This document shows positions 49,296 to 60,905 of a stretch of 64,000 nt of DNA, in pieces; position 1 is the first letter of the stretch; each line of letters starts with the position of its first letter. The position numbers and the translations under genes were made by a program. The stretch comes from Streptomyces sp. V3I7. Lineage in GTDB: Bacteria > Actinomycetota > Actinomycetes > Streptomycetales > Streptomycetaceae. The notes under the pieces are model-generated. The model was not told where the DNA came from and searched no databases. It was given only the letters and a program-made list of their open reading frames with translations. The stretch spans positions 992,001 to 1,056,000 of the forward strand of contig NZ_JAUSZK010000001.1 in the NCBI RefSeq assembly GCF_030817495.1, written 5' to 3'.

Positions 49296-49733
49296 TCAGG
49301 GGGCCGACCGGGCGGCGGCGTCCAGGTGGCGGCCGAGGCGGCGCACGAGCAGCGCCATCTCGTGGGCGAGCTGGCCGACGTCCGTCCGCGCCTCACTGAG
49401 CACGGCCAGTCGGCTGCCGTGCCCGGCCGGGGTGATGAAGAGGTAGGCGTCGTCGAGCATCACCATCGTCTGCCGGACCTCTCCGGCGGCGAACCGGTCC
49501 CCCGCCGACGCGGCCAGGCTGTGGAAGCCGGAGCAGACGGCGGCCAGGTGCTCGATGTCGCGTCTGCGCATGCCCTCGGAGCAGCTCAGCGGAAGGCCGT
49601 CCGCGGTGAGGAGGACCGCCTGGCGGACATGGTCGGTCCGCGCCACCAGGTCGTCCAGCAGCCAGCCGAGGTCCGTGCCGGGTGCTCCGGTGGCCGCGGT
49701 CGGGCGCTCAGAGCCGTGCTGTTCACCGAGCAT
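49296..49733 (-). CDS. cvnB: conservon protein CvnB (roadblock/LC7)
   Basis: A 145-residue roadblock/LC7 protein: DLGWLLDDLVARTDHVRQAV, LLTADGLPLSCSEGMRRRD, VMLDDAYLFITPAGHGSRLA. ATG 49733 overlaps the cvnA stop by 11 bp. Roadblock proteins usually act as platforms for small GTPases (MglB-like); here the cognate GTPase CvnD is missing. Confidence 0.94.
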   Translation of the reverse strand: MLGEQHGSERPTAATGAPGTDLGWLLDDLVARTDHVRQAVLLTADGLPLSCSEGMRRRDIEHLAAVCSGFHSLAASAGDRFAAGEVRQTMVMLDDAYLFITPAGHGSRLAVLSEARTDVGQLAHEMALLVRRLGRHLDAAARSAP

Positions 49734-52722
49734 CGTCGGTATACGTCCCTTCGTCGGTGTCGGTGCGCCCCTGGGATCCGGTGGCGGTGTCGTCGTCCGC
49801 GCCGGGCAGGCCCTTGCGCCCGCGGTCCAGTCCCCGCTGGAAGGCCCCGAAGATCGCCCGCATCTCGTCGGCGTCGACCTCACGCTGCGGGACGGCGTCG
49901 GGTGCGGGCGGTTCGTCGCGCAGTTCGGCGGCGAGCGACGCCTGCCGGACGCGGGTGGGAAGGGCGGGCGGTACGGCACCGGCCTCGACCGGACCGAGCG
50001 CGCGGGGCCCGGTCTCCGACGCCCGAGCGCCCGAGCCGAGCACGGAGGATCCGGCCTCCGGCACCCGAGCGCCCACGCCGAACCCAGGAGACCCGGACTC
50101 CGACACCCGAGCGCCTGGGCCGAACGCAGGGGCCCCGGCCTCCGGCACCCGAGCGCCCACGCCGAACCCAGGAGACCCGGACTCCGACGCCCGAGCACCT
50201 GGGCCGAGCGCGGAGGATCCAGGCTGCGGCACCCGAGCACCCGAACCGAACCCAGGAGACCCGGCCTCCGACACCCGAGCACCTGGGCCGAGCGCGGAGG
50301 ATCCAGGCTGCGGCACCCGAGCACCCGAACCGAACCCAGGAGACCCGGACTCCGACGCCCGAGCACCTGGGCCGAGCGCGGAGGATCCAGGCTGCGGCAC
50401 CCGAGCACCCGAACCGAACCCAGGAGACCCGGCCTCCGACACCCGAGCACCTGGGCCGAGCGCGGAGGATCCAGGCTGCGGCACCCGAGCACCCGAACCG
50501 AACCCAGGAGACCCGGACTCCGACGCCCGAGCACCTGGGCCGAGCGCGGAGGATCCAGGCTGCGGCACCCGAGCACCCGAACCGAACCCAGGAGACCCGG
50601 CCTCCGACACCCGAGCACCCGAACCGGCGCTCTCGCGCGAGCCGGCACGTTCCTCGGCAGGGCCCTGCCGAGGAACGCCCGCTGCCGGGCCGGCTGCCGT
50701 GGCGCCGCCACCACCCGGGCCGGCACCCCTCTCCCCCGACGATGCCTCCCGCCGCACGGGCAGCGCGCCCGCGTGGGCCGGCTGGGGCTCGGGAGTCGGT
50801 GCGGGGGCCGGGTCGGCGTCGGCCAGGACCGACGGCGGCAGCAGCACCACGGCCGTCGTGCCGCCGTACGGGGACTCCCGCAGCGTGACCTGGATGCCGT
50901 GCCGGGCGGCGAGGCGTCCCACGACGTACAGGCCGAGGCGGTCATGGCGGGTCGGGTCGAAGTCGTCCGGGCCGGACAGGGCGCGGTGGGCGTCGTCGAG
51001 CTGGTCGGTGTCGAGGCCGAGGCCGCGGTCGTCGATCTCCAGGACGAAGCCGCCGGACACCGGACCGGTGCGCAGGGTGACCTGCGTGTGGGGCGGCGAG
51101 AACGCCGTGGCGTTCTCCAGGAGTTCGGCGATCAGATGGACGACGTCGGCGACCGCGTCGGCCGCGATGCCGACCTCGGGCATCGGCGGGATCTCGACGC
51201 GCGCGTAGTCCTCGATCTCGCTCACCGCCGAGGACACGACGTTCGCGACGGGCACCGGACGCCGCCAACGGCGGCCGGGCGCCGCGCCGGAGAGGATGAT
51301 GAGGCTCTCCGCGTGGCGCCGCATCCGGGTGGTGAGGTGGTCGATGCGGAACAGGTCCTGGAGGATGTCGGGGTCGTCGGTGCGCCGTTCCAGCGTGTCG
51401 ACGAGCTTCAACTGGCGGTGGACCAGGGCCTGGCTGCGGCGCGCGATGTTGAGCAGCACCGCGAACAGGCCCCGTCGCAGCGTGGCCTGCTTCACCGCGG
51501 CCTCGACCGCGGCGAGCCGCGCGGTGTTGAAGGACATGGCCACCTGGCCGATCTCGTCGGACCGGACCTCGTCGGCGGGCAGCGGCGGCGCCTCGGCCGT
51601 CGCGTCCACGCCCTCGCCGAGACTCAACCGCACCATGACGTCGGGGAGTTGGCGGGTGGAGAGGACGTCCGCCGCGTCCCGGAGCGCCTCCAGGCGGCGC
51701 GAGATGCGCCGGGCGCCGCGCACCGCGGACCACAGCGACAGGCCGACCGCCGCGAGCCCGGCCACGCCGACGACCGCCGCCTTGGTCAACTCCCGGTAGG
51801 CGAAGGCCCGTCCGCGCGCGGCCGAGTTCTCCGCCGACCGGGTGCACATCCGCATGTAGTGGACGACGGCTCGGTCGGTGGTGGTCCGCCAGGTGTCCGC
51901 CGCGACCGCCTCGCCGGCGCCGTCCGCGCCCGCCCGCAGCAGCGCGTCCTCGCCGCGCACCAGCGACCGGTGCAGGCTCCCGCGCTGGAACTCCTCGAAC
52001 AGCGACCGCGAGTCGGCCGGCAGGTCGGGGACGTACGTCCGCTCGAAGACGCGCCGGTCCTCGATGGTCGCCGTCAGGGTGTCGTACTGCCGGTCGGTCA
52101 GCGTGCCCGCGGCGCGCGCGCCGGCGACCAGGGCGTCCTCGCGGGAGACGAACTCCCGTACCCGCACCAGCTCGACGACGATCTGCGCCTCCCGGGCCAG
52201 TTGCCCGGCCTGGAGCGCGGTCAGCGCGGACTGGACGTCGAAGCCGGGCTCGACGAGCGCGCTGTACTCGCTGACGGCCCGGTCCCAGGAGATGTCGCGG
52301 GACAGCACCCGCTCCCGCAGCCGCTCCAGGTGCCCGGTCGCTTCCAGCACGGTGTCGAGCACCTGCCGCTGCCGATCGCTCAGCCGGTCACGGTTCCCGT
52401 CCCGGATCGCGTCGCGCATGGCGTTCACGGCACGATCGGTACGGCGTTGCTGTGCCAGCAGCTCACCGGCGGCGTCCGTGTCGAGGTGCCCGCCGAGGTA
52501 CGCGGCGGACAGCCGGCGCTCGATCTGGATCTGGCCGATGGCCGTGTCGACGGGGGTGCCGAAGTCCTCGTACACCCCCTGGAGCCGGATCAGCGCGCGC
52601 AGTTCGCCGGTGACGGACACCATGGCGAAGCTCCACAGCGCCATGAGGGCGACGGCCGGAGCGAGCGCGAGCGCCACGATGCGGGTGCGGACGGTGGTGG
52701 GACGGCCGACAGGCCAGCGCAT
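49723..52722 (-). CDS. cvnA: conservon sensor kinase-like protein CvnA with repeat tail
   Basis: A 999-residue protein. Residues 1-45 hold a membrane helix (RIVALALAPAVALMALWSFA), then an extracellular nitrate/nitrite-sensing (NIT) helical domain, a second helix (AVVGVAGLAAVGLSLWSAVR), HAMP, a degenerate DHp and an HATPase_c domain (LIAELLENATAFSPPHTQ, EIDDRGLGLDTDQL, DRLGLYVVGRLAARHGIQ). No standard phospho-accepting His motif is evident, as usual in CvnA. Residues 700-909 are 15 tandem copies of a 14-residue motif, followed by an acidic tail (QGRTDTDEGTYTDDAR). Its ATG follows a weak SD. Confidence 0.92.
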   Translation of the reverse strand: MRWPVGRPTTVRTRIVALALAPAVALMALWSFAMVSVTGELRALIRLQGVYEDFGTPVDTAIGQIQIERRLSAAYLGGHLDTDAAGELLAQQRRTDRAVNAMRDAIRDGNRDRLSDRQRQVLDTVLEATGHLERLRERVLSRDISWDRAVSEYSALVEPGFDVQSALTALQAGQLAREAQIVVELVRVREFVSREDALVAGARAAGTLTDRQYDTLTATIEDRRVFERTYVPDLPADSRSLFEEFQRGSLHRSLVRGEDALLRAGADGAGEAVAADTWRTTTDRAVVHYMRMCTRSAENSAARGRAFAYRELTKAAVVGVAGLAAVGLSLWSAVRGARRISRRLEALRDAADVLSTRQLPDVMVRLSLGEGVDATAEAPPLPADEVRSDEIGQVAMSFNTARLAAVEAAVKQATLRRGLFAVLLNIARRSQALVHRQLKLVDTLERRTDDPDILQDLFRIDHLTTRMRRHAESLIILSGAAPGRRWRRPVPVANVVSSAVSEIEDYARVEIPPMPEVGIAADAVADVVHLIAELLENATAFSPPHTQVTLRTGPVSGGFVLEIDDRGLGLDTDQLDDAHRALSGPDDFDPTRHDRLGLYVVGRLAARHGIQVTLRESPYGGTTAVVLLPPSVLADADPAPAPTPEPQPAHAGALPVRREASSGERGAGPGGGGATAAGPAAGVPRQGPAEERAGSRESAGSGARVSEAGSPGFGSGARVPQPGSSALGPGARASESGSPGFGSGARVPQPGSSALGPGARVSEAGSPGFGSGARVPQPGSSALGPGARASESGSPGFGSGARVPQPGSSALGPGARVSEAGSPGFGSGARVPQPGSSALGPGARASESGSPGFGVGARVPEAGAPAFGPGARVSESGSPGFGVGARVPEAGSSVLGSGARASETGPRALGPVEAGAVPPALPTRVRQASLAAELRDEPPAPDAVPQREVDADEMRAIFGAFQRGLDRGRKGLPGADDDTATGSQGRTDTDEGTYTDDAR
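49996..50625 (-). repeat. 15 x 42-bp coding tandem repeat in cvnA
   Basis: Fifteen units of 42 bp encode 14-residue repeats such as GSGARVPQPGSSAL and GPGARASESGSPGF. Units alternate in pairs and higher-order blocks repeat every 168 bp (for example units 1-4, 5-8 and 9-11 are nearly identical). Copies at the C-terminal end are more diverged (GVGARVPEAGAPAF, GSGARASETGPRAL). The tail is low-hydrophobicity and predicted disordered. Confidence 0.95.
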
Positions 52723-52845: not shown

Positions 52846-54315
52846 TCACAGCGCGAAGTCGGTGACCACGGCCGCGTGGTCCGAGGGCCAGTCGTTGCCC
52901 GCGGCCTCGGGCCAGGGGCGCGGGGTGCCCGTGACGAGCGTGCGGGAGCCGAGCGCGGTCAGACCGCGGTGCAGGACGTAGTCGATCCGGTCCTGCGGCT
53001 CGGGACGCCCGCTGCCGTCCTCGCACACCGGATGGATCGGCGACCAGGTGTGACCGGGAGAGGCCGCCGGATCCGGGTGGATCTCGCGGTAGGAGTCGCG
53101 CAGACCCGCCTCCTCGGCCGCCTTCGTCACCGGCCACTCGACGTCTGGCCAGTCGAGGTGGGAGGGGCAGTTGAAGTCCCCGACGAGCACGACGGGAACG
53201 GCCGGCACCGCGGCGCCGCCGGCCTCGTCGATCCGGCGCAGGGTGTCCCGCACCTGCGCGAGACGCACCTCCTCGTGGCCGATCAGCTCGTCCGCCGTGA
53301 GCCCGTCGAAGACGGCCTCGTACGGCCCGTACGGCGTGTAGTGCAGGTGGGCCGTCCAGACGTCGATCTCGCGGCCGGGGGCGACCTCGATACGGACCCC
53401 GGCGGCGCCGTAGAAGCCGACGTCCGGGTCGCCGAAGCGCGCGGTGATGGGGTGGCGGCTGAGGACGCCGAGGTTCACTCCGGCCCGGTGATGGTGCCAG
53501 CCGAGGGCCTCGGCCAGCTCCTGGGCGGAGGTGCCGCCCGTCTCCTGAAGGCCGACGACGTCCGCGCCGCTGTCCAGGATGACCTTGAGCTGCTTCGCAC
53601 GATGGTCGTCGATCTTGCTCCCGCCGAGCCACAGGTTCCAGGACATGACCCGCAGGCGCGGTCGGGGCTCCACCATGGCGCTCAGCTCGTCCAGCGTGAC
53701 CCCGACCAGGGCGTCGCGGACCGTCCGTCCGGGTGCCCCCTCGATCGGCGCGAGCGAGGGCACGGCCAGTACGGCGCACCCGGCCGCCTCGGCGGAGGCC
53801 ACACCCGTCTCGGTGTCCTCGACCGCCACGCACGCGGCCGGTTCGACACCGAGGGCGCGGCAGGCGGCGAGGTAGGGATCGGGCGCCGGCTTGGTGCGGT
53901 CGGTGTCGTCCGCGGTGACGGACGCCGCGAACCGGCTCGCGCCGAGGGCGTCGAGCACGAGGTCGGCGACCGGGCGCGGGGACGCGGTGACCAGGGCGGT
54001 GGGGACACCGGCGCCGGCCAGCGCGTCCAGCAGGGCGAGGGCGCCGGGCCGGGGCACGATGCCGGTGCGGACGCGGTCCGCGAACTCCCGGTGCAGGGTG
54101 GCCGCGACGTCCGCGACCGGTGTGCCGTCGGCCGCGCCGAGCCACGCGGCGGTGTCCTCGACGGCGCGGCCCAGCACCTCGGGCTGGTCGGCCTCGGTCA
54201 GCGGACGTCCGGCCACCTGCTCCACCGCCTCCCACCACAGGCGCTCGGTGTCGACGAGCGTGCCGTCCATGTCGAACAGGACGGCCTGGAGCGGCAGTCG
54301 GGGGTTCGGGGTCAC
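52846..54315 (-). CDS. HAD phosphatase fused to an EEP (endonuclease/exonuclease/phosphatase) domain
   Basis: A 489-residue two-domain protein. Residues 10-215 are a HAD-IA phosphatase: nucleophile D15 and D17 in VLFDMDGTLVDTERLW, T110 in ALVTASPRP, K142 in TKPAPDPYL, acidic E167/D168. Residues 221-489 are an EEP domain: LRVMSWNLWLGG, GLQETGG, HLHYTPYG, VVLVGDFNCPSHLDWPD and PSDHAAVVTDF. Start GTG 54315 follows AAAGGAA. It is the last gene of an operon with a phosphonate/iron-type ABC importer, so a phosphodiesterase-then-phosphatase acting on an imported organophosphate is a good guess (inference). Confidence 0.9.
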   Translation of the reverse strand: MTPNPRLPLQAVLFDMDGTLVDTERLWWEAVEQVAGRPLTEADQPEVLGRAVEDTAAWLGAADGTPVADVAATLHREFADRVRTGIVPRPGALALLDALAGAGVPTALVTASPRPVADLVLDALGASRFAASVTADDTDRTKPAPDPYLAACRALGVEPAACVAVEDTETGVASAEAAGCAVLAVPSLAPIEGAPGRTVRDALVGVTLDELSAMVEPRPRLRVMSWNLWLGGSKIDDHRAKQLKVILDSGADVVGLQETGGTSAQELAEALGWHHHRAGVNLGVLSRHPITARFGDPDVGFYGAAGVRIEVAPGREIDVWTAHLHYTPYGPYEAVFDGLTADELIGHEEVRLAQVRDTLRRIDEAGGAAVPAVPVVLVGDFNCPSHLDWPDVEWPVTKAAEEAGLRDSYREIHPDPAASPGHTWSPIHPVCEDGSGRPEPQDRIDYVLHRGLTALGSRTLVTGTPRPWPEAAGNDWPSDHAAVVTDFAL

Positions 54316-54340
54316 ATCGGTTCCTTTCCTCATGACGCGG

Positions 54341-55432
54341 TCACTTCCCGGCACGTTCCGCCACCAGCACGGGCCGCTCGGGCAGTGACACGTTCACGGC
54401 GGCTCCGGCGCCGAGCCCGGCGGCCTCGTGCGCGGGCAGGTCGGCCTTGGCCTCGGTGCCGTCGGCGAGCTTGACGGTGACCCGTACGACGGCGCCCAGG
54501 AAGGCCGTGGCGACGACCCGGGCGGTGCCCTGCTCGTCGGCCCGCACCTGGACGGCCTCGGGCCGCACCAGCACGTCGACCTCACCACCGGCCGGGACTT
54601 CCCCGTCGGCCGGCAGCCGCTGCCCGAGCACCTCGACGACGCCCTCACCGAGCCGACCGGGAATCCGGCTCATCGTGCCGACGAACTCGGCGACGAAGGG
54701 CGTGGCGGGACGGCCGTACAACTCGGCTGGTTCGGCGCACTGTTCGAGCCGTCCGGCGCGCATCACGGCGACCCGGTCGGCGATCGACAGCGCCTCCTCC
54801 TGGTCGTGCGTGACGAACAGGGTGGTGATGCCGAGCTCCTGCTGGAGCCGGCGGATCTCCTCGCGCAGGCTGGTGCGCACCTTGGCGTCCAGCGCCGACA
54901 GCGGCTCGTCGAGCAGCAGCACGCGCGGGCGCAGGGCGAGCGCGCGTGCCAGCGCAATGCGCTGCTGCTGGCCGCCGGAGAGCTGGTGCGGGTAGCGCTC
55001 CCCCTTGTCGCCCAGGCCGACCAGCTCCAGCAACTCGGCGGCGCGGGCGTGCCGTTCGGCCGTACGCACCTTGCGCATACGGAGCCCGAACGCGACGTTG
55101 TCGACGGCGCTCAGGTGCGGGAAGAGGCTGTACGACTGGAAGACCATCCCGGCGTCACGGCGGTGGGCGGGGACCTGGGTGACGTCCTCGCCGTCCACCA
55201 ACACGGCGCCCTCGTCGGGGTGTTCGAAGCCGGCGAGCATGCGCAGGGCGGTGGTCTTGCCGCAGCCGGACGGGCCGAGCAGTGCCAGGAACTCCCCCGG
55301 GCGGACGGTCAGGTCGAGCCCGTCGAGGGCGACGGTGAAGCCGAACTCCCGGCGCAGTCCCCGGAATTCGACGGTGGCGGCGGCCTTCGCGGCCTTTTCC
55401 GCGAGAGCCTTCTCAAGCGTGGTGGCGGTCAT
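54341..55432 (-). CDS. ABC importer ATPase (iron/thiamine/aminoethylphosphonate type)
   Basis: A 363-residue ABC protein with Walker A GPSGCGKTT, the LSGGQQQRIALARALA signature, Walker B LLLDEPLSALD, and a C-terminal TOBE domain (DVLVRPEAVQV, ATAFLGAVVRVTVKL). It belongs to the Fe3+/thiamine/2-aminoethylphosphonate (PhnT-like) subfamily. It sits between the permease and HAD-EEP genes with 25 bp between them. Confidence 0.94.
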   Translation of the reverse strand: MTATTLEKALAEKAAKAAATVEFRGLRREFGFTVALDGLDLTVRPGEFLALLGPSGCGKTTALRMLAGFEHPDEGAVLVDGEDVTQVPAHRRDAGMVFQSYSLFPHLSAVDNVAFGLRMRKVRTAERHARAAELLELVGLGDKGERYPHQLSGGQQQRIALARALALRPRVLLLDEPLSALDAKVRTSLREEIRRLQQELGITTLFVTHDQEEALSIADRVAVMRAGRLEQCAEPAELYGRPATPFVAEFVGTMSRIPGRLGEGVVEVLGQRLPADGEVPAGGEVDVLVRPEAVQVRADEQGTARVVATAFLGAVVRVTVKLADGTEAKADLPAHEAAGLGAGAAVNVSLPERPVLVAERAGK

Positions 55433-55438
55433 GGTGGT

Positions 55439-56257
55439 TCATCCCCGGGACGAATCGATACGGGTACGCCCACCGGCACCGGCGAGCGTGAGGAGCAGGG
55501 CCCAGGTGACGAGCAGGCTGAGCACGGACACGGCGACGGACATCTGGGCCTCGGCGCCGCCGACATCGGCGATCCACACGGCGAACGGCTGGAAGCCCAG
55601 CAGTTGGGCGACGGTGAACTCGCCGAGCACCAGCGCCAGCGTGAGGAAGGACGCGTTCAGCAGCGCCCCGCGCAGGTTGGGCAGGACGGCCCGCAGCAGG
55701 GCCTGCGGCCAGGAGGCGCCGCAGCTGCGGGCGGCCTCGACGAGCGTACGTACGTCGATCGAGCACAGCCCCGAGTCCAGCGCCCGGTACACGAAGGGCA
55801 GCGCCATCACGACGTACGCGAGGACGAGCACGATCGGGAAGGCGGGGTTCTGCAGGGCCACGAACGTCTGGAACAGCGGCGTGGCGGACAGATAGTCCGG
55901 GCCCCACTTCAGGACGGTGACGATCCCGGCGACGAACGCGATGGGCGGCACGACCAGCGGCAGCGAGCACACCACCTCCACCACCGGCCGCAGCCGGGGC
56001 GCGCCGAGCCGCAGCGCGACCACGGCGGGCACCGTCAGCAGCAGCACGCCGCCGATGGTGGCGGCGGCCAGCTCCAGCGAGAGCAGCAGGCTGGGCAGGA
56101 AGCCGTCGGCCGAGAGGATCCGGGTGTAGGCGTCGAAGCTGACGCCCGGCCCGGGCGCGTCCAGGGTGAAGACCACGGACGCGGCCAGCGGCACGAGGAA
56201 GTACAGCGCGGCCAGGCCGAGTACGGCCCACCGCCAGGGGGTCAGGCGTCCAGCCAT
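55439..56257 (-). CDS. ABC importer permease, second subunit
   Basis: A 272-residue inner-membrane permease with six helices and the EAA loop (LVEAARSCGASWPQALLRAV). VVCSLPLVVPPIAFVAGIV and LALVLGEFTVAQLLGFQPF fit the PhnV/ThiP/FbpB-type binding-protein-dependent permeases. ATG 56257 lies 16 bp inside the preceding permease gene, so translation is coupled. Confidence 0.92.
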   Translation of the reverse strand: MAGRLTPWRWAVLGLAALYFLVPLAASVVFTLDAPGPGVSFDAYTRILSADGFLPSLLLSLELAAATIGGVLLLTVPAVVALRLGAPRLRPVVEVVCSLPLVVPPIAFVAGIVTVLKWGPDYLSATPLFQTFVALQNPAFPIVLVLAYVVMALPFVYRALDSGLCSIDVRTLVEAARSCGASWPQALLRAVLPNLRGALLNASFLTLALVLGEFTVAQLLGFQPFAVWIADVGGAEAQMSVAVSVLSLLVTWALLLTLAGAGGRTRIDSSRG

Positions 56258-57141
56258 CGGGCGCTCCGTCGTTGCAGGGGCAGGTACACGGCCATGACCA
56301 GGCCCGCGACCAGGACCATGTCGAGGCTGAGGGCGAGCGCCACGTTCTCCTGGCCGACCAGCACGTTGCCGGACAGGGCGTCGGCGATCTGCAGGGTGAC
56401 CAGCGGGACCGCGCTGCCCACCATGGCGGCGGCCGTGGCGTAGGCGGCGAAGGCGCTGCCGAACAGCAGGACCAGGCCGCCGAGCAGGGACGGCGCGAGC
56501 ACGGGCAGGGCCACGTGCCGCCAGTACTGCACACCTGTGGCGCCGTTGTTCCGGGCGGCCTCGCGCCACGGCCCGCGCAGGCCGTCGAGGGCCGGGGTGA
56601 TGGTGAGGACCATCAGCGGGATCAGGAAGTACAGGTAGACGATCACCAGGCCCCAGAAGCTGTACAGGTCCCAGCCCTTCTCCGCGAGCCCGAAGTGCCG
56701 CGTCAGCACACCGGCGTTGCCCAGCGTCGCGACGAAGGCGAAGGCCAGCGGGACACCGCCGAAGTTGGCGAGGACACCGGAGGCGGTGAGCACGGCCTCG
56801 CGCAGCGCCCGCGAGCGGGAGCTGACGACGGCCTGCGCGAGCGGCAGCCCGAGCACGGCCGCGAGGGCGGCGGAGATCGCGGACAGCTTGACGCTGCCCA
56901 TCAGGGCGGTGAGGTACGGCCTCTGCAGCGAGGCGGTCAGATTCTGCGCGGTGTACGAAGTGGCCCCACTGACCTGGTCCTTGACCGTGAAGGCGCCGTC
57001 GATCACGGCCAGCGCGGGCACGCCGAAGGCGACCGCGGTGAACACGAGCAGCGGCACGACGGCCGGCCAGCCGGGGGCGCGGCGCCGGCGCTTCGCCGAA
57101 GCGGCCGGCGCCACGTCCGCGCGCGGGAGAGCGGCCGTCAT
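56242..57141 (-). CDS. ABC importer permease, first subunit
   Basis: A 299-residue permease with six helices and the EAA loop (REAARNNGATGVQYWRHVAL). VVSSRSRALREAVLTASGVL, GGVPLAFAFVATLGNAGVLT and FAAYATAAAMVGSAVPLVTL are typical of the PhnU-like partner. ATG 57141 overlaps the binding-protein stop (ATGA). Confidence 0.92.
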   Translation of the reverse strand: MTAALPRADVAPAASAKRRRRAPGWPAVVPLLVFTAVAFGVPALAVIDGAFTVKDQVSGATSYTAQNLTASLQRPYLTALMGSVKLSAISAALAAVLGLPLAQAVVSSRSRALREAVLTASGVLANFGGVPLAFAFVATLGNAGVLTRHFGLAEKGWDLYSFWGLVIVYLYFLIPLMVLTITPALDGLRGPWREAARNNGATGVQYWRHVALPVLAPSLLGGLVLLFGSAFAAYATAAAMVGSAVPLVTLQIADALSGNVLVGQENVALALSLDMVLVAGLVMAVYLPLQRRSARWLDA

Positions 57142-58295
57142 CCGGAGACGGCCTTCGCCCAGCCCTGCGTGACGACCGTCTTGGCCTTGTTCTGCTGGGC
57201 CTCGGTCGGGAAGGAGGGCGCGCCGGAGACCTTCGGGAGCTTGGCGGCGGCCGTCTTGTCGAGGCTGCCGTCCTTCTCCATGGCGGGCATCAGGACCGGA
57301 CGGGCGGACCCCTTCAGCCACAGGTTCTGGCCCTCGGCGCTGTAGAGGTACTCCTGCCACAGCCGGGCGGCCGCCGGGTGCGGGGCGCCCTTGGTGATGG
57401 CCTGGGAGTAGAAGTTCGCGTACGTGCCGTCGCCCGGCACGCTGACCTTCCAGTCGAGGCCCTTGGACCTGAACTCCTCGGCGTAACCGGCGTTGACGTA
57501 GTCCCAGTCGACGGTGATGGGCGTCTCGCCCTTCTCGACGGTGGCCGGGGTCGCCTCGACGGGCGTGTAGTTGCCGCTCTTCTTCAGCTTGGCGAAGAAG
57601 TCGAGGCCGGGCTGGACGTCGTCGAACGAGCCGCCGTTGGCGAGCGCGGCCGCGTACACGCCGGCGAAGGCCGCACCGGCCTTGGTCGGGTTGCCGTTGA
57701 GCGCGACCTGGCCCTTGTACTGCGGCTTGAGGAGGTCGTGGAAGGTCTTCGGGCACTCCTTGACCTTCTCGGCGTCGCAGCCGAGGGAGATGTAGCCGCC
57801 GTAGTCGTTGTACCAGCGGGCCTGCGCGTCCTTCTGCGCGGCCGGGATCTCGTCGTACGAGGCGACCTTGTACGGCGCGAGCAGGCCCTGCTGGGCGGCG
57901 CTGAGCGCGAAGGAGCTGCCGAGGTCGAGGACGTCCGGCAGCCGGTCCTGGCCCTTGCGGGAGGTCACGGCGTTGATCTCGTCCTGGCTGGAGCCGTCGG
58001 GGCTCTCGACCTGGACCTTGATGCCGTACTTCTTCTGGAAGCCGTCGATGAGAGCGCCGTAGTTGGCCCAGTCGCGGGGCAGCGCGATGGCATGCAGCGT
58101 GCCCTCCTTCTTGGCCGCCTTCACGAGGGCGTCCATGCCGCCGAAGTCGGCGGCGGAGGCGGCGGTGGCGGCCTTGCCGCCGGCGGCGGCGGTCGACGTG
58201 TTGCCGGGGGCCGCGCCACAGGCGCTCAGGGCGAGCACGGCGACGACGGCGAGGGAGCCGCCGAGGACGGCGGTTCTCGACAGGGACACGGTCAC
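57138..58295 (-). CDS. ABC importer solute-binding lipoprotein
   Basis: A 385-residue type II binding protein. The lipobox is VAVLALSACGAA, so it is anchored outside the membrane. TLHAIALPRDWANYGALIDG, YGIKVQVESPDGSSQDEINA and TVEKGETPITVDWDYVNAGY are typical of the iron/2-aminoethylphosphonate/spermidine family. Start GTG 58295 follows GGAGAG. It is the promoter-proximal gene of the importer and faces the GntR gene. Confidence 0.94.
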   Translation of the reverse strand: MTVSLSRTAVLGGSLAVVAVLALSACGAAPGNTSTAAAGGKAATAASAADFGGMDALVKAAKKEGTLHAIALPRDWANYGALIDGFQKKYGIKVQVESPDGSSQDEINAVTSRKGQDRLPDVLDLGSSFALSAAQQGLLAPYKVASYDEIPAAQKDAQARWYNDYGGYISLGCDAEKVKECPKTFHDLLKPQYKGQVALNGNPTKAGAAFAGVYAAALANGGSFDDVQPGLDFFAKLKKSGNYTPVEATPATVEKGETPITVDWDYVNAGYAEEFRSKGLDWKVSVPGDGTYANFYSQAITKGAPHPAAARLWQEYLYSAEGQNLWLKGSARPVLMPAMEKDGSLDKTAAAKLPKVSGAPSFPTEAQQNKAKTVVTQGWAKAVSG

Positions 58296-58345
58296 GGTCT
58301 CTCCAGGAGTACGCACGAGGGTGGGGTGGCACGAGAAGCGTGCAG

Positions 58346-58363
58346 AACTTGTCTGAACAAGTT
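58346..58363. promoter_or_regulatory. GntR-type operator for the importer operon
   Basis: AACTTGT-CTGA-ACAAGTT is a perfect 7-4-7 palindrome. It lies 51 bp before the binding-protein start and 164 bp before the divergent GntR gene. It is the best candidate site for the UTRA-GntR repressor; binding is inferred. Confidence 0.6.
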
Positions 58364-58526
58364 GACCCCAGTACGCACGCCGAGGGTGTCCTCTTCATGA
58401 ACACCGGTGAAACCCGGACCCCTGTTTTCCTGCACGGTCAGGATGGCCGCCACACGGACACGGGGCGCCCGGAAACGTCGATTAGGCTGCTGATGCTGTG
58501 GACAGTGACCTGGTCAGAGGGGAAGC

Positions 58527-59267
58527 ATGACGGCGCGACACGAGGAGATCGCCGACGCGCTGCGACGCGCGATAGACGGCGAGGAGTACACAGTCGGCAG
58601 CCGGCTGCCCTCCGAGGCCGAACTCGCCGCGCGGTACGGCGTCTCACGCGGCACCGTGCGCCAGGCCGTCGCGGCCCTCGACGCCGAGGGGCTCATCGGC
58701 TCACGCCAGGGGGCCCGCCGCGTGGTCCTGGCCAGCCGCCGCAGCCAGAGCTTCGCGGAGCTGCGCAGCTTCGCCCAGTGGGCCCGGGCGATGGGCCGCG
58801 AGGCGACCGGACACGTGGTGGAGCAGGAGCGCCGCCCGGCGACGAAGGAGGATTCCGTACGCCTCCAACTCGACGCCGGGGCACCGGTGTTGCACGTGCT
58901 GCGCGTGCGCGGCCTGGACGGCGAACCGGTGCTCCTGGAGCGGACCGTGTACGCCGGCTGGATCGCCTCGGCGGTCGAGGCGATCGAGCCCGAGTGCCCC
59001 TCCGTCACGCAGCGGCTCTACGAGGACACCGGCCTGGTCTTCGCCTACGGCGAGCACGTCATCGACGCGGTCGCTGCGGGCGCCCAGGACGCCGGCCTGC
59101 TGGGCGTCCGCCGTACGAGCCCCCTGCTGCGGGTCCGCAGAGTGACCACGACACGCGAAGGGCGCCCGGTGGAGTGGTCGGACGACCGCTACCGCTCGGA
59201 CGCCGTGAGCTTCAGCGTGCACAACTCGATCGGGAACAACGCGCTGGCGCGCAAGACGGCGGAGTAG
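58527..59267 (+). CDS. GntR-family (HutC/UTRA) regulator
   Basis: A 246-residue GntR protein. N-terminal winged helix: IADALRRAIDGEEYTVGSRL, RYGVSRGTVRQAVAAL. C-terminal UTRA domain: LRVRGLDGEPVLLERTVYAG, VIDAVAAGAQDAGLLGVRR, EWSDDRYRSDAVSFSV. It resembles PhnR-type regulators of phosphonate importers. Divergent from the importer operon, it most likely represses it until the ligand binds UTRA. GGGG lies upstream of ATG 58527. Its stop is 6 bp from a MITE-like element. Confidence 0.92.
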   Translation: MTARHEEIADALRRAIDGEEYTVGSRLPSEAELAARYGVSRGTVRQAVAALDAEGLIGSRQGARRVVLASRRSQSFAELRSFAQWARAMGREATGHVVEQERRPATKEDSVRLQLDAGAPVLHVLRVRGLDGEPVLLERTVYAGWIASAVEAIEPECPSVTQRLYEDTGLVFAYGEHVIDAVAAGAQDAGLLGVRRTSPLLRVRRVTTTREGRPVEWSDDRYRSDAVSFSVHNSIGNNALARKTAE

Positions 59268-59496: not shown

Positions 59497-60905
59497 TAGT
59501 GCTTCGTTAGGTTCTGCTTCTGTCTCTGCGGCTGTTTCTTGGCAGGGTTCGGCCGCAGGTGGTGCAGGTGCCGGTCCAGCACTTCAGCAGGTCCTGGAGT
59601 GTGTCGAGGACCTGGTAGAGGGTCAGGCCGGCGTCTGGGCTTTTGGGTCGAGCCGCCTGAGGGTGAGGAAGGCCTGGGCTGCGGTGACGAGGGTGACGTG
59701 GTGGTGCCAGCCGCGCCAGGTGCGGCCCTCGAAGTGGTCCAGGCCCAGGCCATGCTTGAGTTCGCGGTAGTCGTGCTCGATCCGCCAGCGCATCTTCGCC
59801 CACCGCACCAGGTCGGCGATCGGGGTGCTGGCGGGCAGGTTGCTCATCCAGTAGCCGGTCGGCTCCGACGCGTCTTCGGGCTGCTCGACAAGCAGGGTCC
59901 GCAGCGGCAGCACTCCGTCCCAGCGGCTGCGTCCGCCAGCCTGTTCCTGCGCGGTGCGGGTGGCTTCCTTTCCCGACGGCCGCACTTTCAGCATGGCGAA
60001 ACGCGAGGTCATCGCGCCTTTGCTGCCCTGCCGCCATGTGACCTCCTCGAAGCGGGTACCGGCGTCGATGAGGTCGGGCAGGGGCCGGGCAGGCCCGCGG
60101 TAACGGGGCAGGGTGGGCGGCCCCAGCCCGCCATAGGCAGGCTGAGACGGCTCAGCCGTCGCAGGCCGAGCGATCTCCTTGGGATCCACCGCCATCACGT
60201 AGGACCAGCCGCGTTCCTCCAGCGCGAGCCGGAAGGAGACGCTGCGGCCATAGCCTGCGTCCGCCACGATCACCGGCACCACCAGCCCCTGGCCGGCGAG
60301 CCGGTCCAGCAGGCCGAGTGCCAGACGTGTCTTGGACGCGTGCTCGACCTCGTCGGGCACCCCGGCCCGTCGGCGCCGCAGCTGGTCCCCCGCCCATTCC
60401 TCGGGCAGGAACAACTCCCACTCCAGCGGGCACGAGGCGGTGTCGGTGGCCGCGTGGACACTGACCGCGACCTGGCAGTTGGCCCGCTTGCCCAACGCTC
60501 CGCAGTACTGCCGGGCCACCCCGACCGACGCGGTGCCGCACTTGGGAAACGACACGTCGTCGACCACCCACACATCGGGAGCGATCACCTTGCACAGCCG
60601 CTCGGCGATCCGCCGCCGCACCGGCGACCACTCCCACGGCGATTGGTTCACGAACTGCTGCAGGGCCTGCATGTTCCCGTCCGGCAGCCGTTCCGCCATC
60701 GGCTGGACCGACTTCCGGCGGCCGTCCAGCATCAGACCCCGCAGATAACACTCGCCCCAGCGGCGTTGATCCCGCCGCGGCACCGACCCGAACACATCGG
60801 CGACGAACTCCGCTAACTCACCCCGGAGCCGTTCCACTTCCCTCAACCTCATACCGGAAAGGCTGCCCACCACCAGACGAGATCACCCGACGTAACGAAG
60901 CACTA
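59497..60905. mobile_element. IS701-family insertion sequence
   Basis: A 1409-bp IS with 13-bp terminal inverted repeats TAGTGCTTCGTTA (59497-59509) and TAACGAAGCACTA (60893-60905). It is flanked by CTAG target duplications at 59493-59496 and 60906-60909. The 4-bp YTAR-type target is typical of IS701. It sits between the MITE and the AsnC gene, and shares the MITE's right CTAG. Confidence 0.88.
59623..60852 (-). CDS. IS701-family transposase
   Basis: A 409-residue DDE transposase. VWVVDDVSFPKCGTASVGVA, VVPVIVADAGYGRSVSFRL and RWRIEHDYRELKHGLGLDHF carry the catalytic Asp, Asp, Glu. The start ATG 60852 fits the family; GTG 60873 is also open. The C-terminus RRLDPKAQTPA ends early; the next frame continues LYQVLDTLQDLLKCWTGTCT then TCGRTLP, the usual family ending as I recall, so a one-base deletion near 59636 is possible. 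Confidence 0.9.
   Translation of the reverse strand: MRLREVERLRGELAEFVADVFGSVPRRDQRRWGECYLRGLMLDGRRKSVQPMAERLPDGNMQALQQFVNQSPWEWSPVRRRIAERLCKVIAPDVWVVDDVSFPKCGTASVGVARQYCGALGKRANCQVAVSVHAATDTASCPLEWELFLPEEWAGDQLRRRRAGVPDEVEHASKTRLALGLLDRLAGQGLVVPVIVADAGYGRSVSFRLALEERGWSYVMAVDPKEIARPATAEPSQPAYGGLGPPTLPRYRGPARPLPDLIDAGTRFEEVTWRQGSKGAMTSRFAMLKVRPSGKEATRTAQEQAGGRSRWDGVLPLRTLLVEQPEDASEPTGYWMSNLPASTPIADLVRWAKMRWRIEHDYRELKHGLGLDHFEGRTWRGWHHHVTLVTAAQAFLTLRRLDPKAQTPA

Follow-up and report, generated by a model that had tools for sequence, protein, structure and literature searches.

The 64,000-nucleotide stretch of the Streptomyces sp. V3I7 genome analyzed here (contig NZ_JAUSZK010000001.1, positions 992,001 to 1,056,000; hereafter the window) contains a five-gene operon encoding a substrate-binding protein (SBP), two permeases, an ATPase and an enzyme in which a HAD domain is fused to an EEP domain. 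It lies divergent from a gene for a UTRA-GntR regulator. The locus is real, widespread and conserved, and the data presented below suggest that it probably specifies an organophosphate importer coupled to intracellular dephosphorylation. The link between the operon's palindrome, a putative operator, and secreted phosphoesterases is a new element.

Conservation of the operon and of the fusion

Relatives of the fusion numbered 862 among 7994 candidates at E 0.001 or better, and all 120 of the best-listed ones (120 of 862) possess both domains by Pfam. For the comparison of loci we took the best 80 of 146 GTDB contig stretches encoding a fusion relative, all 80 of which are titled Streptomyces. 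The fusion is a single open frame in each of these. The first-pass annotation had proposed a search for HAD-EEP fusions with a tally of their ABC and GntR neighbors; in this tally the full set (GntR, SBP, both permeases, ATPase, HAD, EEP) is present in 78 loci, and the remaining two (L039 and L063) are broken by contig ends. The concern that the fusion might occur only here is dispelled by its wide distribution, and the notion of an assembly artifact was rejected in view of the 862 relatives, the 80 Streptomyces loci and a second architecture elsewhere. When 396 genomes sampled from the phylum were searched at E 1e-20, with three candidates scored in each, full-length matches were obtained in four, which belong to the 12 genomes sampled from the same genus; the other matches cover one domain.

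The first half of the fusion scores 63.8 bits against TIGR01509 (HAD-IA; cut-off 29.4) and the second half 63.3 bits against PF03372 (cut-off 24.5), placing them in the HAD-IA and EEP groups, respectively. The HAD motif residues (D21, D23, S118, K148 and E172/D173) and the EEP catalytic residues (N233, E264, H329, D386, N388, D485 and H486), together with D448, are identical in all 80 Streptomyces loci. Three of these had already been picked out as D15, D17 and K142, which become D21, D23 and K148 when numbered from the ATG at 54333. The predicted structure of the fusion has a mean pLDDT of 94.0 and a pTM of 0.76, and the HAD and EEP structures found by Foldseek coincide with those of another search.

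A D-x-A sequence at motif I is a feature of phosphonatase (PhnX). Motif I of the window fusion is DMDGTLV, and D-x-D-G is found in 15/15 operon HADs examined, whereas 6/6 PhnX-like enzymes have D-x-A-G. A phosphonatase role for the HAD domain is therefore disfavored, and its score against TIGR01422 (PhnX) is 47.5 bits, far below the cut-off of 220. Against TIGR02009 (beta-phosphoglucomutase/sugar phosphatase) it reaches 93 bits, also below the cut-off (153.35).

Relatives of the fused EEP domain come from actinobacteria, fungi and others; judged by eye, most have signal-like N-termini and some do not. Those with fungal names (Purpureocillium, Kalmusia, Aaosphaeria, Corynespora; rows P0189, P0205, P0207, P0226 and P0227 of alignment A1) branch among the bacterial ones, which may reflect inter-kingdom gene transfer. 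The phosphodiesterases of S. sanglieri that act on glycerophosphocholine (GPC) and glycerophosphoethanolamine (GPE) were considered as EEP relatives and dropped, because they are described as apparently relying on Ca2+ and on an intermediate formed with serine (PMC5095149).

A second HAD-EEP architecture

In a Cryobacterium-like genome (L197) the same type of operon encodes one 659-aa protein composed of a HAD domain, an insert of about 140 aa and an EEP domain. A search with this protein found 18 proteins, 14 of which have both domains and two of which are named Cryobacterium. When the Streptomyces and Cryobacterium-type EEPs were held together in a tree test, the cost was 17.7 log units (approximately unbiased (AU) test, p 0.0415), and without the long-branch row P0254 it rose to 45.7 log units (AU p 0.0005). 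By this test, the two fusions were probably joined separately. In the SBP tree the fusion label requires two changes, forced by the starred branches. A single origin is disfavored, yet with all rows the AU p is only 0.0415 and long branches are in play.

Relatives of the transporter and their neighborhoods

The solved structure that best matches the SBP in sequence is 5t1p (E 1e-42), followed at a distance by AfuA, a hexose-phosphate binder (4r72; E 1e-10, 44 bits), and by 8x1a, which is named as an iron-compound binder (E 3.5e-10); other iron binders match at 1e-6 or weaker. The possibility, raised at the outset, that the SBP would cluster with Fe3+ binders is therefore not borne out. All scores against Phn models fall below their cut-offs: 70.8 bits for the SBP against PhnS (cut-off 395.3) and 84 against NF011620 (310), 396.1 for the ATPase against PhnT2 (457.7), and 123 for the GntR protein against PhnF, its best NCBIfam model (156.8). 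The pairwise alignment of the SBP with AfuA is gapped at the sugar-binding residues His205, Asp206 and Glu229 of AfuA, and a pocket comparison of the SBP clades revealed nine positions that differ but gave no reading of the ligand.

The SBP was found in 111/394 class genomes (E 1e-30). To describe its neighbors, 60 loci with SBP matches were picked for spread, and hence non-randomly, and scanned with profiles for the operon genes and for four partner types chosen after a first look. A partner was found in 25 loci, HAD-EEP in two (L173, L197) and others in 23. A HAD gene alone occupies the place of the fusion, 3' of the ATPase gene, in 12 loci (L157, L158, L161-L170) and is divergent in one (L159). 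PbfD-like and PhnX-like genes adjoin the transporter in six (L176, L177, L180, L181, L185, L214), with the last member of the pair weak in L180, L185 and L214. A TIGR03767 metallophosphoesterase is present in five (L183, L185, L196, L203, L214) and an AP-type phosphodiesterase in one (L206). Type cases score 384.8 bits against TIGR03364 (cut-off 285.1), 260.4 against TIGR03351 (218.9), 390.2 against TIGR03767 (330.75) and 85.5 against PF01663 (23). Taking both sets together, a HAD or HAD-EEP gene accompanies the transporter in 80/80 Streptomyces loci and in 15 survey loci.

In the SBP tree a 28-row clade (99/97) unites the SBPs of fusion operons, those of HAD-only operons, four lone SBPs and L160. 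The SBP of genome G1147 (L343) groups with the HAD-only SBPs (75% identity; SH-like approximate likelihood ratio 95-96 in a quick tree), and its locus runs PbfD-SBP-permeases-ATPase; a GntR-PhnX-like pair is divergent from these genes, and the palindrome described below is present twice. Phosphoethanolamine is aminoethylphosphonate (AEP) with one additional oxygen, and a switch between a PbfD and PhnX-like (DxA) pair and a DxD HAD would therefore fit one between a phosphonate and a phosphate ester with the same headgroup. PbfD enzymes are described as oxidizing N-methyl-AEP and AEP (PMC10590968).

The four lone SBPs (L171, L172, L175 and L179, all Streptomyces) have neither permeases nor an ATPase nearby. 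In L171, L172 and L175 the SBP gene immediately follows one that encodes a protein of about 890 aa, which in L171 has sCache, GAF, SpoIIE phosphatase and HATPase domains; these three SBPs were perhaps recruited as a sensor.

A palindrome at the operon and upstream of secreted phosphoesterases

The exact palindrome ACTTGTCTGAACAAGT occurs once in the window and in none of 100 shuffles. A degenerate form is present in 78 of the 79 regions between gntR and the SBP gene (the window and 78 loci; the exception is L054), and RCTTGTN4ACAAGT in 12/13 HAD-only loci (the exception is L159). A palindrome next to gntR is as expected for the operator of a HutC/UTRA-type GntR regulator, and it is accordingly termed a putative operator. 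Beyond these operons, a GntR paralogue lies between PhnX-like and PbfD-like genes in genome G808 (L268, 3742-6488), next to a palindrome of similar sequence, ACTTGTCTTCACAAGT; the 10.5 kb stretch has no SBP match.

In the V3I7 genome the exact palindrome is found twice, at the operon and upstream of a sphingomyelinase C-like gene. Allowing up to two mismatches gave 13 places compared with 34 for a control pattern, and therefore only the two exact sites were used. Across 382 genus genomes the pattern RCTTGTTCANACAAGY has 123 sites in 116 genomes and the control pattern none, and all 116 site-bearing genomes (80/80 and 36/36) have the SBP at E 1e-90. Of these sites 115 are within 400 bp of an SBP gene, and one more (G933:C36), a GntR-HAD site with remnants of the SBP and ATPase, brings the operon-type sites to 116. 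The remaining seven all lie 94-132 bp upstream of the start of a secreted phosphoesterase gene, where the starts were chosen by the analyst and secretion was judged by eye from the N-termini. Four of these genes are sphingomyelinase C-like (G000, which is V3I7 itself, G128, G947 and G1054). The V3I7 protein scores 121.5 bits against TIGR03395, below the cut-off of 248.2, and its PDB matches are sphingomyelinases; the other three are 89-90% alike and 30-33% identical to it. The site in G812 precedes a gene for a secreted EEP protein that is 43% identical to the fused EEP domain, and those in G976 and G846 precede PF04185 phosphoesterases. None of the seven genes encodes a glycosidase. The sites in V3I7, G128 and G812 prompted the idea of a link, and those in G947, G1054, G976 and G846 were found afterwards. 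In our rough judgment, the placement of all seven just upstream of secreted phosphoesterases is not due to chance.

In family f89 the pattern RCTTGTTYRNACAAGY is present in 32/150 genomes, with control matches in five. Among 30 loci from this family, 27 have the SBP and GntR genes beside the site, two (L327, L342) have the SBP without GntR on a short stretch and one (L341) has neither; two further places have no locus. The suggestion that the V3I7 sphingomyelinase is common in the genus was dropped: at E 1e-30 it was found in 1/101 genomes, a search in which the roughly 30% identical G128 protein, although in the sample, was not reported.

Organization of the locus

The gene set recognized at first, with the fusion last and the UTRA-GntR gene divergent, is borne out by Pfam matches and coordinates (Table 1). 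The operon had been described as having a spacing of 4-25 bp. It is indeed compact, but slightly tighter than this: the SBP and permease 1 genes overlap by 4 bp and the two permease genes by 16 bp, with gaps of 6 bp between permease 2 and the ATPase and 7 bp between the ATPase and the fusion (25 bp from the GTG start).

Table 1. Features of the putative organophosphate locus, in window coordinates.
Feature	Position	Strand	Remarks
UTRA-GntR regulator	58527..59267	+	PF00392 and PF07702; divergent from the operon
Palindrome ACTTGTCTGAACAAGT, proposed operator	58347..58362	strandless	between the gntR and SBP genes
SBP	57138..58316	-	PF13343, 98.8 bits; lipoprotein-like N-terminus, judged by eye
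Permease 1	56242..57141	-	PF00528, 34 bits
Permease 2	55439..56257	-	PF00528, 38.4 bits
ABC ATPase with TOBE domain	54341..55432	-	PF00005, 133.4 bits; PF08402 (TOBE_2)
HAD-EEP fusion, 495 aa	52846..54333	-	start ATG 54333; alternative GTG 54315
HAD domain of the fusion, residues ~15-220	53674..54291	-	PF00702/PF13419 matches, first half
EEP domain of the fusion, residues ~226-495	52849..53658	-	PF03372, second half

Directly downstream of the operon is a gene for a NIT-domain histidine kinase (49723-52722, minus strand), the C-terminal part of which contains an 84-bp tandem repeat (50008-50619; 7.3 copies, 93% matches). A DDE transposase gene (59623-60873, minus strand; PF13546, 303 bits) lies close to gntR.

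Proposed function and alternatives

In the scheme that we infer, secreted phosphoesterases would free small phosphate esters outside the cell, most likely phosphoethanolamine, phosphocholine (the product of sphingomyelinase C) or glycerophosphodiesters. The SBP would capture these, and the permeases and ATPase would bring them into the cell unaltered. Once in the cytoplasm, a phosphodiester would be cut by the EEP domain to a phosphomonoester, from which the fused HAD domain would free phosphate. As long as no phosphorylated ligand has entered the cell, the GntR-UTRA protein is predicted to act at the palindrome as a repressor of the operon and, in certain strains, also of a gene for a secreted phosphoesterase. 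The system would thus scavenge phosphorus and perhaps also choline or ethanolamine.

An importer with an EEP diesterase and a HAD monoesterase had been proposed in the first-pass annotation. This general idea gains support because of the conserved synteny, the second HAD-EEP architecture, the relatives of the transporter beside aminophosphonate and phosphoesterase genes, and the palindrome before secreted phosphoesterases; its substrate, above all, is something that we infer. The more specific proposal, that headgroup esters of lipids (phosphoethanolamine or phosphocholine, perhaps glycerophosphodiesters) are imported and dephosphorylated internally, is one that we favor at somewhat less than even confidence. 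Within it, phosphoethanolamine or phosphocholine is the best guess for the substrate of the HAD-only operons, and the extension by the added EEP domain to diesters such as GPE or GPC is the weakest step. More tentative still is the fullest form of the proposal, a dedicated bacterial route by which headgroup esters of phospholipids or sphingolipids (phosphoethanolamine, phosphocholine and their glycerol diesters) would be taken up intact. In some strains this route would share its regulation with secreted phosphoesterases, sphingomyelinase C-like or of other kinds, and its last enzyme would be a fused diesterase-monoesterase assembled on at least two occasions in actinobacteria. The SBP would have a common ancestry with AEP binders and perhaps resemble them in the shape of its ligand.

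Several observations weigh against the headgroup proposal. The nearest relatives of the HAD domain are enzymes of the sugar-phosphatase type, and the fused EEP domain has no close solved relative, its best profile match being partial (E 4e-7). In the survey, 35/60 transporter loci have none of the sought partners. In the Cryobacterium-like locus no copy of the palindrome was seen. Sites away from the operon occur in only 7/116 genomes, the other 109 having no second exact site, and about 1.5 sites are expected by chance over the 382 genomes. Further, the pattern was narrowed to RCTTGTTCANACAAGY only after three of the seven sites had been seen, and among the four sphingomyelinase sites three are almost copies of one another, leaving about four independent cases. 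The rarity of the V3I7 sphingomyelinase, noted above, belongs here as well, and the extra V3I7 site forms the center of a longer inverted repeat (L221, 6865-6900), whose 18-base arms match perfectly as judged by eye and which might be a hairpin. The broader pattern RCTTGTNNNNACAAGY is found in 46/101 genomes with control matches in many, and of 30 loci drawn from it 19 have SBP and GntR genes and 11, each with another center, have none of the sought genes apart from a weak GntR match in two. Finally, in family f89 no site away from the transporter was seen apart from that in L341, where all of the genes are lacking.

The sugar-phosphatase character of the HAD relatives suggests another reading, in which the transporter, like AfuA, imports phosphorylated sugars or sugar phosphodiesters, the EEP domain serves as either a sugar phosphatase or a diesterase, and hexose or hexitol phosphates are the substrates of the HAD domain. 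We consider this unlikely: the SBP is far closer to 5t1p than to AfuA, related transporters accompany aminophosphonate genes, and the genes behind the extra palindrome sites are of the sphingomyelinase-like, EEP and PF04185 types, with no glycosidase among them. About equally improbable is an importer of AEP or inorganic phosphate, like PhnSTUV/AepSTU or mycobacterial PhnDCE, with the HAD-EEP enzyme in a side job. Phn models are the best or high-scoring matches of the SBP, ATPase and GntR protein, although all below cut-off, PbfD/PhnX-like genes adjoin related SBPs, and the phnF-phnDCE system of M. smegmatis is reported in a review to have turned out to carry phosphate (PMC7866108). Against this, no PbfD, PhnX-like, PhnW or C-P lyase family was found among the operon proteins scanned, the HAD motif is DxD rather than DxA, and a HAD or HAD-EEP gene is kept with the transporter throughout the loci counted above. 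It is very unlikely that the transporter carries ferric iron and that the last gene of the operon encodes a hydrolase unrelated to this. Iron binders do appear among the weaker structure matches of the SBP, 8x1a being third, but most do so at E 1e-6 or worse. The operon also keeps its hydrolase across loci, and partners connected with phosphorus turn up repeatedly.

Relation to known systems

The headgroup proposal may be compared with several established pathways. The AEP importers PhnSTUV/AepSTU share with the window a PF13343 SBP, a family given for AepS and AepX in PMC8316502, as well as a PhnT2-like ATPase and, beside related transporters, PbfD/PhnX-like genes; they differ in that the scores here fall under all Phn cut-offs and the enzyme has a HAD domain of the DxD type, either by itself or joined to EEP. 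Secreted phospholipase C and a HAD phosphorylcholine phosphatase act together in the PlcH/PchP system of Pseudomonas, where dephosphorylation occurs outside the cytoplasm. There too a headgroup is released outside and a HAD enzyme dephosphorylates it, but here we propose import of the intact ester. AfuABC and P5PA belong to a family once taken for iron binders and shown to bind phosphorylated compounds (PMC4546632, PMC8427247), and AfuA, although the second structure match, is distant. UgpBAEC with UgpQ/GlpQ (glycerol-3-phosphate and glycerophosphodiesters; PMC7866108) likewise combines ABC uptake of phosphate esters with a phosphodiesterase, but the window SBP is of PF13343 and its diesterase is EEP rather than GDPD. 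The phnF-phnDCE system has a divergent GntR repressor and a Phn-named ABC transporter, as here, but inorganic phosphate is the reported substrate, and the passage concerned mentions no HAD or EEP gene (PMC7866108). Among the matches listed in a search of titles and abstract openings, covering an open-access collection with few subscription journals, no HAD-EEP fusion and no bacterial ABC importer of phosphocholine or phosphoethanolamine was described.

According to the same 2021 review, Streptomyces has no ugp cluster and no uhp genes, and intact uptake of glycerol-3-phosphate is called an open question (PMC7866108). The operon presented here is a definite candidate by which this genus could take up organophosphates intact, with a putative operator, a list of candidate ligands and an enzyme. 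If the headgroup proposal is true, the enzymes of sphingomyelinase and phospholipase type that soil bacteria secrete would be tied to cytoplasmic use of the products that they release, and a phosphorus-scavenging route not yet assigned in Streptomyces would be carried by many of its soil-dwelling members.

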